DNA of 64,000 nt. Origin: Streptomyces iranensis (GTDB lineage: Bacteria > Actinomycetota > Actinomycetes > Streptomycetales > Streptomycetaceae). Both the position numbers and the translations under genes were made by a program. Positions 18,585 to 27,802 of the stretch are shown here, in pieces (within the stretch, counting starts at the first letter, position 1; each line of letters opens with the position of its first letter). The stretch is taken from NCBI RefSeq assembly GCF_017874715.1, contig NZ_JAGGLR010000003.1:124001-188000 (forward strand). The letters run 5' to 3'. The notes beneath the pieces were generated by a model. It did no database searches. It was not told where the DNA came from and saw only the letters and a program-made list of their open reading frames with translations.

Positions 18585-18800
18585 ATGCCCTTCGCGAACT
18601 TCAAGGTCCCTGCCGGATCGCTCGACGAGAAGCAGAAGGAGGAGATCGTCACCCGTGCCACCGAGCTGTACGTCGAGATCTACGGTGAGCGCGCCCGCGC
18701 CACCACCCTGGTCCTGGTCGAGGAGGTCACCGACGGCGGCTGGGGCATCGGCGGCAATGTCCTGACCCTCGCCATGCTCCAGCAACCACCCGGCAACTGA
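18585..18800 (+). CDS. 4-oxalocrotonate tautomerase family protein
   Basis: Small protein of 71 aa. After removal of Met1 the N-terminal Pro (MPFANFKVPAG) would be the general base of tautomerase-superfamily enzymes. The helix DEKQKEEIVTRATELYVEIYGERAR and the strand TTLVLVEEVTDGGWGIGG match the 4-OT fold. Probable keto-enol tautomerase acting with the two SDRs; the actual reaction is not deducible. RBS GAAAGAGA precedes ATG 18585. Last gene of its operon, followed by a terminator. Confidence 0.85.
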   Translation: MPFANFKVPAGSLDEKQKEEIVTRATELYVEIYGERARATTLVLVEEVTDGGWGIGGNVLTLAMLQQPPGN

Positions 18801-20941: not shown

Positions 20942-21919
20942 GTGCAGATACGCAAGGTCGTTTTAGCGGCCGGCGGAGCGGTTTTCGCGTTCGCCCTGAC
21001 GATTCCGGCGGCCGCGTCCGCCGATTCGCACAGCACCGTCATACGCAGCGCGGACACCGCGGTGTCCACGCACAAGAGTGCCGCGCCCCGCTCATCCGCG
21101 GAGTCCGCCGAGAAATACTGGACCCCGCAGCGTATGCGCAGAGCCGTCGAGGCCGACACGCCCACCGACGCCAAGGCGTCGCGGAAGGCGGCCATCGACG
21201 CGGCGGCCGAACCCGCTCAGCTCGCGAAACCGCAGAAGGCCACATCGAAGAAGGCCCGCGGGGTGCGGATCGCCACCTCGATCGTGCAGGGCAAGGTCTT
21301 CTTCCACAACCCGACCAACGGTGGCGACTACGCCTGCTCCGCCGCGGCGGTCAACAATCCCACGAAGAACATGGTGTTCACCGCGGGGCACTGCGTCCAC
21401 GGTGGCGCCGGTGGCACCTGGGCCACCAACTGGGTGTTCGTGCCCGCGTACTACAACGGCTCGCGGCCGTACGGAACCTGGTCCGCCAAGACGCTGACCG
21501 CGTTCAACGGCTGGATCAACAACAGCGATCTGAACTACGACATCGGCGTGGTCAACGTGTGGGACAACGGCGCCGGCAAGCTGGTCAACACCGTCGGCGG
21601 CATGGGGCTCGGCTACAACTACGGGTACTCCAACACCGTGACCGTCTGGGGCTATCCGGCCGCCTTCGGCTACGACGGCGAAGTGCCCTATGTGTGCCAG
21701 AACATCCCCACGTGGCAGGACGGCTCCCGGGTGCAGAACGGGTGCACCATGGTCGAGGGCGCGAGCGGCGGCCCCTGGCTCCGGGACTACAACGAGACCA
21801 CGGGCCTGGGGACCGAGATCGGCGTCACCAGCACCCGGACCGATCCGCCCGCCTACATCGACAGCCCCTACTTCGACAACAAGATCCAGACGATCTACGA
21901 CAACACCGCCAACGGCTGA
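20942..21919 (+). CDS. secreted trypsin-like serine protease with propeptide
   Basis: Extracellular S1-type (V8/trypsin-like) peptidase, 325 aa. Signal peptide residues 1-28 (ALTIPAAASA). A propeptide of about 80 residues contains EKYWTPQRMRRAVEADTPTD. The catalytic domain shows His in VFTAGHC, Asp in LNYDIGVV and Ser in EGASGGPWL. GTG 20942 follows a GGGGGGA site; TTG 20930 would lie inside that site. A small gene 112 bp downstream repeats the propeptide motif, and a kinase/regulator pair follows, so the cluster may couple proteolysis to signalling. Confidence 0.92.
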   Translation: MQIRKVVLAAGGAVFAFALTIPAAASADSHSTVIRSADTAVSTHKSAAPRSSAESAEKYWTPQRMRRAVEADTPTDAKASRKAAIDAAAEPAQLAKPQKATSKKARGVRIATSIVQGKVFFHNPTNGGDYACSAAAVNNPTKNMVFTAGHCVHGGAGGTWATNWVFVPAYYNGSRPYGTWSAKTLTAFNGWINNSDLNYDIGVVNVWDNGAGKLVNTVGGMGLGYNYGYSNTVTVWGYPAAFGYDGEVPYVCQNIPTWQDGSRVQNGCTMVEGASGGPWLRDYNETTGLGTEIGVTSTRTDPPAYIDSPYFDNKIQTIYDNTANG

Positions 21920-21982
21920 GCACCACACACGGCGGTCGGCCGGGGCCCCGCACTCAGGGGCCCCGGCCTCCGGCATCCGTAG

Positions 21983-22032
21983 CCCCACCATCGGGAGAGA
22001 ACGTCAGCCCCCACCATCGGGAGAGAACGTCA
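21983..22032 (+). repeat. tandem 24-bp leader duplication carrying the RBS
   Basis: The 24-bp sequence beginning CCCCACCATCGGGAGAGA occurs at 21983-22006 and again at 22009-22032, identical in both copies and offset by 26 bp. Each copy carries the ribosome site GGGAGAGA. The second copy ends on the A of the ATG at 22032; after the first copy the next bases (GTCAGCC) give no start codon. Confidence 0.8.
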
Positions 22033-22310
22033 TGCGCCCGCTCACCGCAGTGCTCATCACCGCGGCGGCCGTGGGAACCGGCATCGTCGCGGTCCTCGCC
22101 GTCACCGCCCGGGGCGACGACACCGGCGATCCCCCCGCCCCGGACACCCCACGGACCCATCGCGCGGATCCGCCGGACCCCTCGTACTGGACACCGGAGC
22201 GGGTGCGCGACGCACGGCCCGCGCCGATGCCCACCGACCCGGGCCAGAGCCGGGGCGCGGGCCCGGACGCTGGGCCCGGCGCGGGAGGCGGGCGGCAATC
22301 GCCGCCGTAG
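22032..22310 (+). CDS. small membrane-anchored protein with protease-propeptide motif
   Basis: Protein of 92 aa with one N-terminal membrane segment (residues 4-24, AVLITAAAVGTGIVAVLAV), an acidic Pro-rich linker, and the segment SYWTPERVRDARPAPMPTD at about 50-68. That segment matches the propeptide of the neighbouring protease (KYWTPQRMRRAVEADTPTD) in spacing and most conserved residues. There is no protease domain, and the C-terminus is Gly/Ala/Pro-rich. The gene ends in TAG directly abutting the GTG of the histidine kinase, so translation is probably coupled. Possible roles are a tethered pro-domain that chaperones or inhibits the protease, or a substrate or sensor part of the two-component system. 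All of these are inference. Confidence 0.7.
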   Translation: MRPLTAVLITAAAVGTGIVAVLAVTARGDDTGDPPAPDTPRTHRADPPDPSYWTPERVRDARPAPMPTDPGQSRGAGPDAGPGAGGGRQSPP

Positions 22311-23624
22311 GTGCGTAATGTGGCGCGGGTGCGAATAGCTGTGTCCTCCGGCCGGCGCGCCGGTTATCGACGTTGGCCGGGGCGGATCGTGATCGCCGCG
22401 CTGGCGCTGTGGTTCCTCTTCTCCGTCTACCAGGACGTGCGGGAACGGCTCGTCCTCGACCCGGACTTCGACACGGAGGCGTTCGCCGGGGACTGGGTCC
22501 CGATCGGTTCCGGAGTCCTGGCCGGGGCGATGGCCGTGCTGGCCGTCGTGCGCGATGTCCGATGGGTTCCGCGGGCCGCTCTGGTGGCCTGTGCCGGAAC
22601 CTTCGCGGCCACGGTGGCCTACCACCTGATGCCGGTGAACATGGTGACCAGCGAGTCCAGCGGCACCGAACTCATGGGGTTGCTGTTCCTCCTCGCCGTG
22701 GCGGTGCGCCGCTGCACGCCCTGGTGGGCCCTGGCGTCCGTGGCGGCGATGAGCGTCAGCGTGTTCTCCATCCCGCTCCTGCGGGACACCGATCCCGGTG
22801 ACTTCTCCGACAACACCGCGCTGTTGCTGGCGCTGGCCTTCGTCTGCGGGCTGGTGCTGCGGCTCTACGACGTCCAGCAGGAGCGCACCGGACAGCTGGT
22901 GCGGCAGGAGGAACGGCTGGCGCTGGCCCGGGACCTGCATGACACCGTGGCCCACCAGGTGACCGCCATCGTGGTGCAACTGCAGGCCGTGCGCCATGTC
23001 ACCGGGCGGGGCACCCCCGACCCGCAGGCGCTGAACGAGATGCTCGAGGCCGTCGAGCACGCGGGCGGCGAGGCGCTGACATCGATGCGGCGCCTGGTGG
23101 GCTCGATGCGCGGTGACGAGACCCCGCGGCATCCGGAGAACCTGGGCGAGGTCCTGACCCGCATCGTGGACGAGGCACGGGGGACGGGGCTGCCGGTCCG
23201 GCTGGACCTCGGGCGGGATCTGCCGGAGGACGTACCGGCGGAGGTCACCGGAGGGCTGAGCCGGGTCCTTCAGGAGGCCCTGACCAACGCCCAGCGCTAT
23301 GCGCGCGGAGTGCGGTCGGTGGATGTGTCCGCCCGGGTGGCGGCACACCATGCCGAACTGGTCGTGGAGGACGACGGACACGGCTCCCCGTCCGGACACC
23401 GCGGCAGCCTCGGCCGGCTCGGCGGCGGCTTCGGCATCATGGGCATGCGGGAGCGGATCGAGCTGCTCGGCGGCGCCTTCGAGGCGGGCCACCGCGCCGA
23501 AGGCGGATGGCGGGTCCGCGCCTCCGTACCGCTGCGCCCCGACGAGGCCGCGCGCAACCCGCGAACACGTGGGCGGCATGCCATACGAACCGGGTTGCGG
23601 CTACGGGAGGGCAGGACGGCATGA
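22311..23624 (+). CDS. sensor histidine kinase (HisKA_3 type)
   Basis: Membrane sensor kinase of 437 aa. About six membrane segments occupy residues 25-195 (IVIAALALWFLF first, ALLLALAFVCGLVL last) with little extracellular sequence. The phosphoacceptor is in ALARDLHDTVAHQV (HisKA_3). The ATPase domain shows the N box in LQEALTNAQRYA and the G boxes in VEDDGHGSP and GGFGIMGMRERIELLGG. The GTG at 22311 abuts the stop of the small upstream gene; the 3' end overlaps the regulator gene by 4 bp (ATGA). With the ABC exporter downstream it resembles NarL-type systems for envelope stress or antimicrobial resistance. Confidence 0.9.
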   Translation: MRNVARVRIAVSSGRRAGYRRWPGRIVIAALALWFLFSVYQDVRERLVLDPDFDTEAFAGDWVPIGSGVLAGAMAVLAVVRDVRWVPRAALVACAGTFAATVAYHLMPVNMVTSESSGTELMGLLFLLAVAVRRCTPWWALASVAAMSVSVFSIPLLRDTDPGDFSDNTALLLALAFVCGLVLRLYDVQQERTGQLVRQEERLALARDLHDTVAHQVTAIVVQLQAVRHVTGRGTPDPQALNEMLEAVEHAGGEALTSMRRLVGSMRGDETPRHPENLGEVLTRIVDEARGTGLPVRLDLGRDLPEDVPAEVTGGLSRVLQEALTNAQRYARGVRSVDVSARVAAHHAELVVEDDGHGSPSGHRGSLGRLGGGFGIMGMRERIELLGGAFEAGHRAEGGWRVRASVPLRPDEAARNPRTRGRHAIRTGLRLREGRTA

Positions 23625-24271
23625 CCATACGCATCCTGGTCGCGGACGATCAGCATCTGGTGCGGGCCGGGTTCCGCATGGTGCTGTCGGCCGAGCCCGA
23701 CATGGAGGTGGTGGCCGAGGCCGCCGACGGGGCCTCGGCCCTGTCCCTGGCCCGCGAGACCCAGCCGGATGTGTGCCTCGTGGACATCCGGATGCCGCCG
23801 CCCGACGGTCTGGAGGTCACCCGCCGGCTGGCCGGCGGCGGTCGGCCCGGAGCCCCGAAGGTGGTCGTGGTCACCACCTTCGATCTCGATGAGTATGTGT
23901 ACACGGCGCTGTCGAACGGAGCGTCCGGTTTTCTCCTGAAGGACGCCGGTCCGGCACTGCTGACCGAGGCCGTGCGGGCGGCCGTCCGCGGAGACGCCAT
24001 GGTCGCCCCGCAGATCACCCTCCGGCTGCTCCAGCACTTCACCAAGAGCCGGCGGCGCGCCGCACATGAGCCGGCCGAGCCGCTGACCGACCGCGAGGAG
24101 GAGGTCATCCAGGGCATCGCCCGCGGACTGACCAACCCGGAGATCGCCGCCGAGCTGTACATCGCGCCCAGCACGGTCAAGACGCATCTGGGCTCGGTCC
24201 AGGCGAAGCTGGGCCTGCGCAACAGGGTCGAGATCGCGACCTGGGCCTTCCGCACGGGGCGTGCGGAGTAG
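23621..24271 (+). CDS. NarL/FixJ response regulator
   Basis: Response regulator of 216 aa. Receiver domain: acidic pocket ADDQHLVRAG, phosphoacceptor Asp in CLVDIRMPPPDG, Thr in VVTTFD, Lys in FLLKDAG. The LuxR-type helix-turn-helix reads LTDREEEVIQGIARGLTNPE with STVKTHLGSVQAKLGLRNR. Cognate partner of the kinase immediately upstream, with which it overlaps. The ABC genes 156 bp downstream are the obvious targets. A TCCCCCGATCGGGGGA palindrome at 24288-24303 lies between. Confidence 0.93.
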   Translation: MTIRILVADDQHLVRAGFRMVLSAEPDMEVVAEAADGASALSLARETQPDVCLVDIRMPPPDGLEVTRRLAGGGRPGAPKVVVVTTFDLDEYVYTALSNGASGFLLKDAGPALLTEAVRAAVRGDAMVAPQITLRLLQHFTKSRRRAAHEPAEPLTDREEEVIQGIARGLTNPEIAAELYIAPSTVKTHLGSVQAKLGLRNRVEIATWAFRTGRAE

Positions 24272-24427: not shown

Positions 24428-25192
24428 ATGCACGCACACCAGCCCCCTTCCGCCCCGGAGTCCTACGCGGCCCACGCCACCGATCTGACGAAGGTGTACG
24501 GCACGGGGGACACCCGTGTGGTGGCCCTCGACGCGGTCACGGTCGGCTTCGGCAAGGGGCGGTTCACCGCGATCATGGGTCCGTCCGGTTCCGGGAAGTC
24601 CACCCTGATGCACTGCATGGCCGGGCTCGACTCGCCGTCCTTCGGCTCGGTCCGCCTCGGTGACACGGAGATCGCTTCCCTGAACAACCGTCAGCTCACC
24701 CGGCTGCGCCGCGACCGCGTCGGCTTCGTCTTCCAGGCGTTCAACCTGCTGCCCACCCTGAGCGCCCTGGAGAACATCACCCTCCCCATGGACATCGCGG
24801 GCCGCAAACCGGAGCGGGCCTGGCTGGAGAGCATCATCCGGACCGTCGGCCTGGCCGACCGGCTCGGCCACCGGCCCGCCCAGCTCTCCGGCGGCCAGCA
24901 GCAGCGCGTCGCCGTCGCCCGCGCGCTGGCCGGGCGGCCCGACATCGTCTTCGCCGACGAGCCCACCGGCAACCTCGACTCCCGCAGCGGCGGCGAGATC
25001 CTCGAGTTCCTGCGCGGTTCCGCGAGCGCGCTGGGCCAGACGGTCGTGATGGTCACTCATGACCCCGTCGCCGCCTCCTACGCGGACCGCGTGGTGTTCC
25101 TCGCCGACGGCCGCGTCGTCGACGAACTCCACGCGCCGACGGCCGAGGCCGTCCTGGAGCGCATGGGCCGCCTGACCCCGGCGCACGCCTGA
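24428..25192 (+). CDS. ABC transporter ATP-binding protein (MacB/LolD family)
   Basis: ATPase subunit of 254 aa. Walker A GPSGSGKST, Q-loop FVFQAFNLLPTLSALEN, signature LSGGQQQRVAVARALAGRP, Walker B IVFADEPTGNLD, and the H-loop in VMVTHD. The sequence pattern places it in the LolD/MacB group that works with FtsX-type permeases. The next gene, 78 bp on, is such a permease, and a kinase/regulator pair precedes it, so this is probably an inducible exporter or lipid/peptide-handling complex in the membrane. Confidence 0.94.
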   Translation: MHAHQPPSAPESYAAHATDLTKVYGTGDTRVVALDAVTVGFGKGRFTAIMGPSGSGKSTLMHCMAGLDSPSFGSVRLGDTEIASLNNRQLTRLRRDRVGFVFQAFNLLPTLSALENITLPMDIAGRKPERAWLESIIRTVGLADRLGHRPAQLSGGQQQRVAVARALAGRPDIVFADEPTGNLDSRSGGEILEFLRGSASALGQTVVMVTHDPVAASYADRVVFLADGRVVDELHAPTAEAVLERMGRLTPAHA

Positions 25193-25270: not shown

Positions 25271-27802
25271 GTGTTCCGTACCGCCCTGCGCAACGTCCTC
25301 GCGCACAAAGCCCGCCTGCTGATGACCATGCTCGCCGTCCTGCTCGGCGTCGCGTTCGTCGTGGGCACCCTCGTCTTCACCGACACCGTCGGAAACGCCT
25401 ACAAGGAGCGCTTCCTCACCACCCTGCGCGATGTCTCGGTCCAGGCCACACCGCCCTACGACGAGAAGGCCGGCGAGCGCGGAACGGTGGCGGAGGACAC
25501 ACTGCGGCGCCTGCGACGGCTGCCCGGCGTGGCGTCCGTCACCGGCTCCGTCGAGGGGTCCGCCGCCGTGGCCGCGAAGGACGGCCACCCGCTCGGCGAG
25601 GACCATGTCACCGCGGGGGGCAACTACTTCCCCCAGGACGACGGCAAGGACACCCGCCACCCGCTGACCGCCGGGCGCGCCCCCACCGGGCCCGAGGAGG
25701 TGCTGCTGGACACCGCCACCGCCGACGCGGGCGGCTACCGGGTCGGCGACACCGTCCGGCTGGCCGTCGACGGACCGGTGCTGCACAAGAAACTCGTCGG
25801 GATCGTCCGCACCGACGACACCCACGGCTCCGGCGGCACTCTGGCGCTCTTCGACGACGCCACCGCGCAGAAGCTGTTCCTGAAGCCCGGCCGGTACGAC
25901 GGAATCACCCTCGAGGCCGGCCGCGGCACCTCCGAGGCGAAGCTCGCGGCCGAAGCGCGCCATCTGCTGCCCGGGGACTCCGACATCAGCACCGGGGCGC
26001 AGCTGCGCGAGCGGCAGCGGACCGCGGCCGCCGAGGGGACGAAGGGGCTCAGCCAGGTGCTGCTCGTCTTCGCGGCCATCGCCCTGTTCGTCGGCATCTT
26101 CGTCATCGGCAACACCTTCACCATGCTCGTCACCCAGCGTTCGCGGGAGATGGCCCTGATGCGGGCCGTCGGCGCCGAGCGCCGCCAGGTGACCCGCTCC
26201 GTCCTCATCGAGGCCGGAATGCTGGGGCTGTGCGCGGGCGCCGCGGGATTCCTCCTCGGCATCGGCGTGGCCATGGGCATCAGGCAGCTGTTCGCGTCCA
26301 CCGGATCCGGTCTGCCGGACGGGCCGTTGGTCGTCTCGCCCAGCACCGTACTGATCTCGTTCCTGGTGGGCGTCGTCGTCACCATGCTCGCCGCCTATGT
26401 GCCCGCCCGCCGCGCCGCCGCCGTGCCTCCCGTGGCCGCCATGTCCGCGATCCACACACCCCCGCCCGTCCGTGGCCTCCGGAGGCGCAACGCGATCGGC
26501 GTCGCCCTGATCGCGATCGGTGTGCTCGGCGTGGTGTACACGGCGTCCAGCGGCGAGCAGGGCAGGACCATCGTGCTCCTCCCGGCCGCCCTGCTGCTCA
26601 TCGGCATCATCGTGGTGACACCGGCGCTCTCCGGCCCGGCCGTCGACCTGGCCGGACCCCTGCTGCGCCGCTTCGGCGTCCCGGGCACGCTGGCGCCGCG
26701 CAACGCCCGGCGCAACCCCCGGCGCACCGCCTCCACGGCCTCGGCGCTGATGATCGGGCTGTCCCTGGTCACCGGGCTCACGGTGGTCGCGGTGTCCGCC
26801 ACGACATCGCTGCACGAGCGGGCCGAGAACTCCGTCACGGCCGACTTCGAGATCTCGTCGAAGAACAGCGGCCACCTGCCCGCGTCGGTCCACGACACCC
26901 TGGCGAAGTCCTCGGCCGTGACCTCCTCCAGCCCGCGGCGCCAGGGCGCCGTACGGATCGGCGGCGACGAGGTGACCCTGACCGGTGTGAACCCCCGGAC
27001 CATCGGCGACCTCCTCGGCCCGAGCTTCGTCTCGGGCTCGTTCGCGGCCCTGGGCTCGGGCGGAGGCAAGAGCCTGCTGATCGACACCTCCATCGCCGAC
27101 ATCCACGGATGGAGCACGGGACAGCGGGTTCCGGTGGTTTACGACGACGGCAGCCGGGGCTCACTGGAGATCGGCGGCGTCTACCACGACGACGAATACC
27201 TCCCGTCCACCATGATGCCGCTGGCCACGCTGCAGCCCCATCTGAAGGAGATCGAGGACGCCTCGGTCCTGGTGCGCACCAAGGCCGGTGACGGCGACAC
27301 GGCACGGCGTTCCCTCCAGCGCACGCTCGACCAGAACCCGGTTATCCAGGTGCGGAACACCGACGACCTGGCCGATGCGGCCGGTGGCGAGGCCATCACA
27401 CTGCTTCTCAACGTGCTCTACGGGCTGCTGGCCATGGCGGTGGTGATCGCGGTCCTGGGAGTCGTCAACACCCTCGCGATGTCGGTGTTCGAGCGCACCC
27501 GTGAGATCGGGATGCTGCGCGCGGTGGGGCTCCAGCCCGAGCAGACGAAGCGGATGATCCGTCTGGAGTCCGTGCTCATCTCGCTGTTCGGGGCCCTTCT
27601 GGGCATCGGCGCGGGCATCTTCCTCGGCTGGGCCGCGGGCAAGCTCGCGTCCGGCAGCATCCAGGGGTACGAGATGGTCATCCCCTGGGGCCGTATCGCC
27701 GTGGCACTCGCGGGCGCCGCGCTCGTCGGAGTGGTCGCCGGACTCTGGCCCGCCCGCCGGGCGGCCCGGCTGAACATCCTCACGGCCCTCAAGGCGGACT
27801 GA
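25271..27802 (+). CDS. FtsX-like ABC transporter permease
   Basis: Large permease of 843 aa with two FtsX units. One N-terminal helix (ARLLMTMLAVLLGVAFVVGTLVF) is followed by an extracellular MacB-type domain (about 40-250), three helices, and a middle part with further helices. A second extracellular domain (about 520-690) precedes the C-terminal three helices (ITLLLNVLYGLLAMAVVIAVLG onward). RSREMALMRAVGAERRQV and ERTREIGMLRAVGLQPEQT are the two cytoplasmic coupling loops. GTG 25271 follows GGAAGG. Works with the adjacent ATPase. The substrate is unknown; export of lipids, peptides or drugs is typical for the family. Confidence 0.93.
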   Translation: MFRTALRNVLAHKARLLMTMLAVLLGVAFVVGTLVFTDTVGNAYKERFLTTLRDVSVQATPPYDEKAGERGTVAEDTLRRLRRLPGVASVTGSVEGSAAVAAKDGHPLGEDHVTAGGNYFPQDDGKDTRHPLTAGRAPTGPEEVLLDTATADAGGYRVGDTVRLAVDGPVLHKKLVGIVRTDDTHGSGGTLALFDDATAQKLFLKPGRYDGITLEAGRGTSEAKLAAEARHLLPGDSDISTGAQLRERQRTAAAEGTKGLSQVLLVFAAIALFVGIFVIGNTFTMLVTQRSREMALMRAVGAERRQVTRSVLIEAGMLGLCAGAAGFLLGIGVAMGIRQLFASTGSGLPDGPLVVSPSTVLISFLVGVVVTMLAAYVPARRAAAVPPVAAMSAIHTPPPVRGLRRRNAIGVALIAIGVLGVVYTASSGEQGRTIVLLPAALLLIGIIVVTPALSGPAVDLAGPLLRRFGVPGTLAPRNARRNPRRTASTASALMIGLSLVTGLTVVAVSATTSLHERAENSVTADFEISSKNSGHLPASVHDTLAKSSAVTSSSPRRQGAVRIGGDEVTLTGVNPRTIGDLLGPSFVSGSFAALGSGGGKSLLIDTSIADIHGWSTGQRVPVVYDDGSRGSLEIGGVYHDDEYLPSTMMPLATLQPHLKEIEDASVLVRTKAGDGDTARRSLQRTLDQNPVIQVRNTDDLADAAGGEAITLLLNVLYGLLAMAVVIAVLGVVNTLAMSVFERTREIGMLRAVGLQPEQTKRMIRLESVLISLFGALLGIGAGIFLGWAAGKLASGSIQGYEMVIPWGRIAVALAGAALVGVVAGLWPARRAARLNILTALKAD

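Follow-up and report, generated by a model that had tools for sequence, protein, structure and literature searches.

Which of its two neighbors does a small open reading frame serve when it lies between a gene for a secreted protease and one for a sensor kinase? The question is posed by Streptomyces iranensis, in which a 92-residue protein is encoded at such a position of the window, our term for the whole 64,000-nucleotide stretch of DNA analyzed (contig NZ_JAGGLR010000003.1, positions 124,001 to 188,000; Table 1). The original prediction, whose interval started at position 21983, ~50 nt 5′ of the small-ORF ATG, suggested that this protein is a membrane-tethered protease propeptide without a protease, acting as a chaperone, an inhibitor, or a cleavage-sensing partner of the two-component system.

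Table 1. Features of the locus in window coordinates
Feature	Position	Strand	Basis or detail
Secreted chymotrypsin-fold (S1) serine protease, 325 aa	20942..21919	+	GTG 20942; stop 21917-21919
Docking element of the protease propeptide (predicted), residues ~40-75, with KYWTPQRMRR	21059..21166	+	AlphaFold2 block pLDDT; 36-protease alignment
Terminator-like hairpin, 12 bp, no T run	21938..21968	+	Between protease and small gene
23-nt tandem repeat before the small gene	21984-22006, 22010-22032	+	Read directly; holds ribosome-site-like GGGAG
Stand-alone pro-domain protein (putative)	22032..22310	+	ATG 22032, TAG 22308-22310, 92 aa
Hydrophobic segment, residues 8-24 of the small protein: signal anchor or signal peptide	22053..22103	+	Hydropathy
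Predicted docking segment of the small protein (target: mature protease), residues ~34-72	22131..22247	+	AlphaFold2, S. rugosispiralis orthologue pair; dN/dS
HisKA_3 sensor histidine kinase	22311..23624	+	Pfam HisKA_3, HATPase_c; judged outside the protease/pro-domain module
NarL-type response regulator	23621..24271	+	Pfam Response_reg, GerE; overlaps kinase stop by ATGA
ABC ATPase	24428-25192	+	3′ of the kinase and regulator genes
FtsX/MacB-type permease	25271-27802	+	Downstream of ABC ATPase

The local description proved accurate. The protease ends 112 nt upstream of the small ATG, and the small protein lacks a catalytic domain and has a single hydrophobic segment, which is its most hydrophobic stretch (Kyte–Doolittle mean of 2.36 over 17 residues). 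C-terminal to this segment, SYWTPERVRDARPAPMPTD (22182-22238) matches KYWTPQRMRRAVEADTPTD of the neighboring protease propeptide (21113-21169), as had been proposed, with 11 of 19 residues in common. A DNA pattern for YWTP[EQ]R, limited to CGN arginine codons, has just two matches in the 12-Mb genome, one in the protease propeptide and one in the small ORF, 1.07 kb apart; the reversed-pattern control returned 0 matches. The small protein matched no Pfam family up to an E value of 1, and thus neither I9 nor I29, and no NCBIfam family. Partial repeats are also present in some orthologues (G135, G422) at the site of the 23-nt tandem repeat that precedes the gene.

The neighboring protease is organized as a signal peptide followed by a propeptide and a catalytic domain. 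Its sequence matches the Pfam family Trypsin (PF00089) at 22 bits (cutoff, 20.6) and Trypsin_2 at 26.2 bits, under the 27.6 cutoff of the latter, and carries the catalytic motifs TAGHC and GASGGPW. The closest solved sequences in a PDB search were Anisep (3wy8, E 4e-27) and AL20 (3cp7, E 6e-26), to which the predicted model aligned with VIA Z scores of 32.2 (214 residues, 1.7 Å) and 30.8, respectively, in keeping with a chymotrypsin fold. For a second model, the 50 Foldseek matches listed fit protease folds. We found no known fold for the docking segment by VIA-align, which covers model residues 72 to 298 well and the remainder barely.

The shared motif is characteristic of this type of protease. 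Searching 121 Streptomyces genomes with a DNA pattern for YWTx[EQ]RM gave 24 places in 20 genomes (1 with the reversed control), which by translation comprised 21 S1 protease propeptides, 2 small stand-alone proteins, and 1 unrelated enzyme that resembles HemW. Because 21 of the 24 places are S1 protease propeptides, we regard YWTPERM as a propeptide signature. The W, T, R, M, and A of the motif are invariant across 36 aligned proteases, mostly actinobacterial, and W, T, and R across 15 aligned stand-alone copies, where V, T, or I replaces M in some; both sets were picked by the motif, so this invariance is partly a selection effect. In two of the proteases (L081:6019-7977 and L037), the YWTPERM segment and the catalytic domain are separated by a long stretch, which in a near relative, L079, is a Lys/Gln/Pro-rich repeat. 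A homologue from Amycolatopsis circi (L131:8001-8783) keeps the YWTPERM propeptide and apparently lacks the catalytic His and Ser motifs (TSASC, ALGGPW); judging from these residues, it is a possible pseudoprotease.

A collection holding one genome per species (84,980 species) yielded 235 pattern matches, of which 53 loci were listed and confirmed. Thirty-three of these have a stand-alone copy and 19 the protease only; the single unclear case, a Kaiserbacteria MAG with the motif inside a 333-aa frame, was left unclassed (L132). In 20 of these 33 loci, the stand-alone copy immediately follows a motif-bearing protease, in support of the protease link in the original prediction. The remaining 13 loci had no protease match, one of them (L124) being truncated by a contig end. 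Paired arrangements occur in species as varied as Actinomadura hibisca, Micromonospora rosaria, and Schaalia georgiae (L113). Copies lacking a protease have mixed flanks, encoding MarR, AMP-binding, FAD oxidoreductase, sigma factor, MFS, or tRNA synthetase proteins or proteins assigned to no family.

Two further surveys gave comparable mixtures. Among 392 Streptomyces genomes, we found 6 intact copies in the clade of the window, 1 remnant (G292), and 15 other motif-bearing copies, of which 10 are directly behind a same-strand protease, 1 is beside an opposite-strand protease, and 4 have no protease within ~1.5 kb. This search covered 35 places: 9 represent the clade and the G292 remnant, and those left out of the 15 were motif-less loci (L042, L043, L046, L049-L052, L054), a protease propeptide, and two places that had no locus. 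The order-level scan matched 38 of 197 genomes. The 29 loci read, drawn from the matches that had a locus other than that of the window itself, comprised 19 proteases, 1 unrelated protein, and 9 small copies. Of the small copies, L153-L155 are behind a protease, L156 and L161 adjoin an opposite-strand one, and L157, L159, L162, and L168 have no protease nearby. The genome sets apparently overlap (G335/L083, G369/L089, G412/L092, G430/L119, and probably G189/L107), so their counts are not summed.

Most copies follow a common plan, with a short and often basic N-terminus, a hydrophobic segment, a variable linker, a YWTPERM-like motif, and a tail reading xAxPAPMP or a variant thereof, after which the protein ends. 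Many stand-alone copies contain a PAPMP-like stretch, as do few of the 36 aligned proteases. Judged by these shared features, the short proteins form an unnamed family. In the open-license literature, no mention of the YWTPERM motif was found, and stand-alone, trans-acting, or membrane-anchored YWTPERM pro-domains in bacteria were absent among the matches listed. Several members depart from the plan. The copy in Streptomyces sp. F63 (L085:7938-8168) has no hydrophobic segment and no protease in its locus and is possibly a remnant after protease loss. L048, L053, and L162 form a subgroup with an SVxRETKSPEEIRxYWTPER-like sequence, some Cys-containing tails, and no protease within ~1.5 kb, while L047, L156, and L161 are variant copies adjoining an opposite-strand protease homologue. 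Two proteobacterial MAGs (L118:7896-8207 and L101) bear YWTPERM on short signal-peptide-like proteins, with no S1 protease in the locus.

A gene this small could be a functionless by-product, either a duplicated propeptide or a decayed protease copy, and its breakage or loss in four clade genomes (G292, G147, G396, G399) and its frameshift beside an intact protease in S. violaceusniger NBRC 13459 would fit such an origin. The substitution pattern argues otherwise. Over eight clade sequences, dN/dS was 0.56 for the whole small gene and 0.04 at codons 46 to 69, compared with 0.42 for the linker, 0.55 for the tail, and 1.98 for codons 1 to 28, the hydrophobic part, where synonymous changes are few. 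In the clade of the window, constraint is therefore concentrated on the motif. For comparison, dN/dS was 0.21 for the protease and 0.33 for the kinase (10 sequences), and five small genes of the S. scabiei type gave 0.43. Size and plan are also the same in different actinomycete families. Decay from a full protease, the circumstance named beforehand as fatal to the proposal, is ruled out by the stop shortly after the motif tail, the lack of any catalytic remnant after the motif in the translated copies, and the low motif dN/dS, and a functionless gene of either origin is highly improbable.

The immediate surroundings of the gene are compatible with a kinase partner. Its TAG directly abuts the kinase-frame GTG at 22311, as originally described, an exact abutment that depends on the start picked, since further in-frame GTGs lie at 22320 and 22329. 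On the other side, the RNA of 21920-22031 folds at -52.2 kcal/mol (z -2.57), and a comparable stem, once bulged, appeared in all eight clade sequences folded. Given the hairpin after the protease and the abutment on the kinase, expression of the small gene may be coupled to that of the kinase in this clade. Elsewhere the gap between protease and small gene varies: in L081, L082, L083, L089, and L091, it spans 21 to 46 nt by our choice of start and folds weakly, and in L088, L090, L129, L098, and L092, it folds strongly.

These features would suit the proposal that the two-component system uses the small protein as an accessory or cleavage-sensing subunit: stop abuts start in the clade, a hairpin parts the small gene from the protease, and a single transcription unit may span the small gene, the kinase, and the regulator. 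The wider distribution argues against it. Only four of the 33 stand-alone loci adjoin this kinase, and all four belong to one clade (S. rugosispiralis, S. niphimycinicus, S. sabulosicollis, and S. violaceusniger); the other 29 have no homologue of it in stored flanks of up to 8 kb at an E value of 1e-5. A homologue search beside kinases and proteases therefore upheld the protease link and confined the kinase link to a single clade, and a general role for the small gene as a neighbor of kinases was rejected. Pfam likewise returned no sensor-kinase match among the 8 flanking genes of 7 paired loci, which include one opposite-strand HATPase_c_2 protein (L088). A distant kinase and regulator lie ~7 kb from the protease in one protease-only locus (L125, Actinomadura barringtoniae).

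Within the clade, the small gene follows the protease. At an E value of 1e-60 or below, the kinase has homologues in 11 of 392 Streptomyces genomes, 10 of them at 86 to 100% identity. Among these 10 close orthologues, all six protease-bearing genomes keep the small gene, none of the four protease-less genomes keeps it intact, and it was never found intact without the protease; since the two genes lie side by side, single deletions could explain their joint loss. Intact small-gene orthologues were identified in G135, G055, G422, G204, G189, S. rugosispiralis, and S. sabulosicollis. The four protease-less genomes (G292, G147, G396, G399) offer best protease matches of 34 to 40% identity rather than an orthologue. 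Differing 3′ remnants of the small gene persist in G292 and G147, both of which also have the downstream ABC genes; in G396, the kinase start directly adjoins sequence otherwise located upstream of the protease; and in G399, the kinase is now preceded by the counterpart of window gene 18585-18800, which we take to be tautomerase-like. All four retain the regulator and a kinase frame without stops, indicating that the kinase can do without the small gene. Neither a protease nor a convincing small gene appeared in the 9 kb read at a more distant kinase homologue (G283, 53 to 54% identity). With adjacency restricted to one clade and no joint conservation with the kinase, the accessory-subunit part of the original prediction finds no backing, and we give it little probability; from its distribution, the two-component system appears to be a lineage-specific neighbor. 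In S. violaceusniger NBRC 13459 (L117:7850-8126), where protease and kinase are intact, a frameshift in a C-rich run interrupts the small gene ahead of the motif, reflecting either a sequencing error or pseudogenization.

Structure prediction points back to the protease. An AlphaFold2 model of the window proprotease (residues 28 to 325, 36 alignment rows) had a mean pLDDT of 83.9, and successive ten-residue blocks of the propeptide scored 38, 71, 89, 96, 77, 34, 34, and 55, with the 96 belonging to KYWTPQRMRR. Because a short confident segment sits between disordered stretches, the model suggests that this segment packs on the catalytic domain. The S. rugosispiralis small gene lies in frame behind its protease, and docking in trans was modeled by reading through the stop (code 4) to join mature protease and small protein with the propeptide omitted. 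In this artificial chain, in which the stop is read as Trp and the segment is tethered to the enzyme, residues 284 to 322 (small-protein 34 to 72) gave block pLDDT values of 74, 90, 91, and 88 from an alignment in which 5 rows cover the tail and small-protein rows from outside the clade were not used. The linker and hydrophobic segment scored ~28 to 31 and the flanks ~30 to 43. A helix at PERVRD and strand pieces appeared at nearly the same offsets from Tyr as in cis. As predictions judged by pLDDT, these models support the idea that the stand-alone segment docks at a site of the kind used by the propeptide segment. They also bear on the idea that the motif is a shared docking tag for a third protein, such as a translocon helper or an activating protease, that handles proprotease and small protein alike. 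Occurrence of the motif in different protease subgroups and in stand-alone copies with no protease nearby would accord with such a tag, but AlphaFold2 folds the motif with the protease domain itself, both in cis and from the tail, and we consider a third-party tag improbable.

The role assigned to the hydrophobic segment determines where such docking would occur. The segment is present as predicted, and tethering is likely, although the segment could also be a cleaved signal peptide, which hydropathy cannot separate from an anchor. Were it cleaved, the motif peptide would be released as a soluble inhibitor or foldase, and some members do have plausible signal-peptidase sites (e.g., TATAA before PPP in L033), while the proteobacterial MAG members L101, of unsure strand, and L118 begin with signal-peptide-like segments. 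In several others, the hydrophobic stretch is followed at once by Trp-Arg, Leu-Arg, or Val-Arg and no cleavage site is shared, and the lipobox-like LAVGC of L038 would itself tether the protein. A released peptide is therefore unlikely, and a membrane anchor with the motif outside is the likely arrangement.

Taken together, we consider it probable, by a fair margin over an even call, that the small protein is a stand-alone, probably tethered pro-domain that acts in trans on the neighboring protease as an inhibitor, chaperone, or tether. Motif identity, conservation, genomic pairing, joint absence, and predicted docking support this reading computationally, and from them we infer binding in vivo, retention at the membrane, and an inhibitory or chaperoning effect. 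In this scheme, the docking segment of a YWTPERM-type propeptide would have been separated from its protease and placed on an N-terminal hydrophobic segment, and protease and small protein would meet outside the membrane. There the small-protein segment would occupy the site of the protease's own propeptide segment, with the extra PAPMP-like stretch perhaps adding the contacts needed when no covalent link exists. The enzyme might then be assisted in folding, held back, or restrained near the membrane. We slightly prefer inhibition because the proline-rich PAPMP end of many copies could lie along the enzyme uncut.

A broader proposal is more tentative, and we place it a little short of an even call: actinobacteria, and perhaps other bacteria, may possess a class of membrane-anchored, trans-acting S1 pro-domains with a docking segment of ~40 residues, which would catch a secreted protease at the external face of the membrane and either hold it in an inactive state or aid its folding, while unpaired copies would act on proteases encoded elsewhere. 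If so, many Streptomyces would protect themselves from, or position, a secreted protease by means of a membrane-fixed piece of propeptide. The YWTPERM motif would gain a testable function, small orphan genes beside proteases would be explained, and the arrangement could be useful for making such proteases in Streptomyces hosts.

Known systems resemble this locus in part. Anisep and AL20 share the fold of the neighboring protease, and alignment with their solved chains begins only at model residue 79 or 83, past the motif segment; motif-bearing genes are present in the Arthrobacter group (L102, L105, L111). The N-terminal pro-residues of pro-Esp from Staphylococcus epidermidis, which has a V8-like fold, have been studied structurally (6q12, 6q24, 6u1b), and these entries align from model residue 44 or 79 onward rather than over the motif segment. 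CseA and LpqB are membrane-associated proteins encoded beside actinobacterial kinases. Unlike them, the S. iranensis-type small protein is associated across species with a protease rather than with the kinase. The I29 cysteine protease inhibitors CTLA-2alpha, crammer, and BCPI are free-standing relatives of protease propeptides (PMC4089206, PMC3551606); their partners are cysteine proteases, whereas the S. iranensis protein has no Pfam I29 match. The closest parallel in genetic arrangement is SUB1-ProM of Plasmodium, a stand-alone subtilisin propeptide-like protein encoded beside the protease gene and described as a potent, selective inhibitor (PMC6993865). Both small proteins resemble a protease propeptide, lack a catalytic domain, and have genes linked to the protease, in our case at 20 of 33 loci. 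SUB1-ProM is eukaryotic and has a subtilase propeptide fold, with no membrane segment mentioned in the text consulted; the S. iranensis protein is bacterial, is paired with an S1-type protease, and combines a short predicted strand-and-helix segment with a hydrophobic segment that is likely an anchor. Inhibition by SUB1-ProM is proven, while the S. iranensis pair is known from sequence, with one predicted docking in an artificial chain of its S. rugosispiralis orthologues. Stand-alone propeptide-like inhibitors are already known, and the YWTPERM small-protein family would be a new addition to them.
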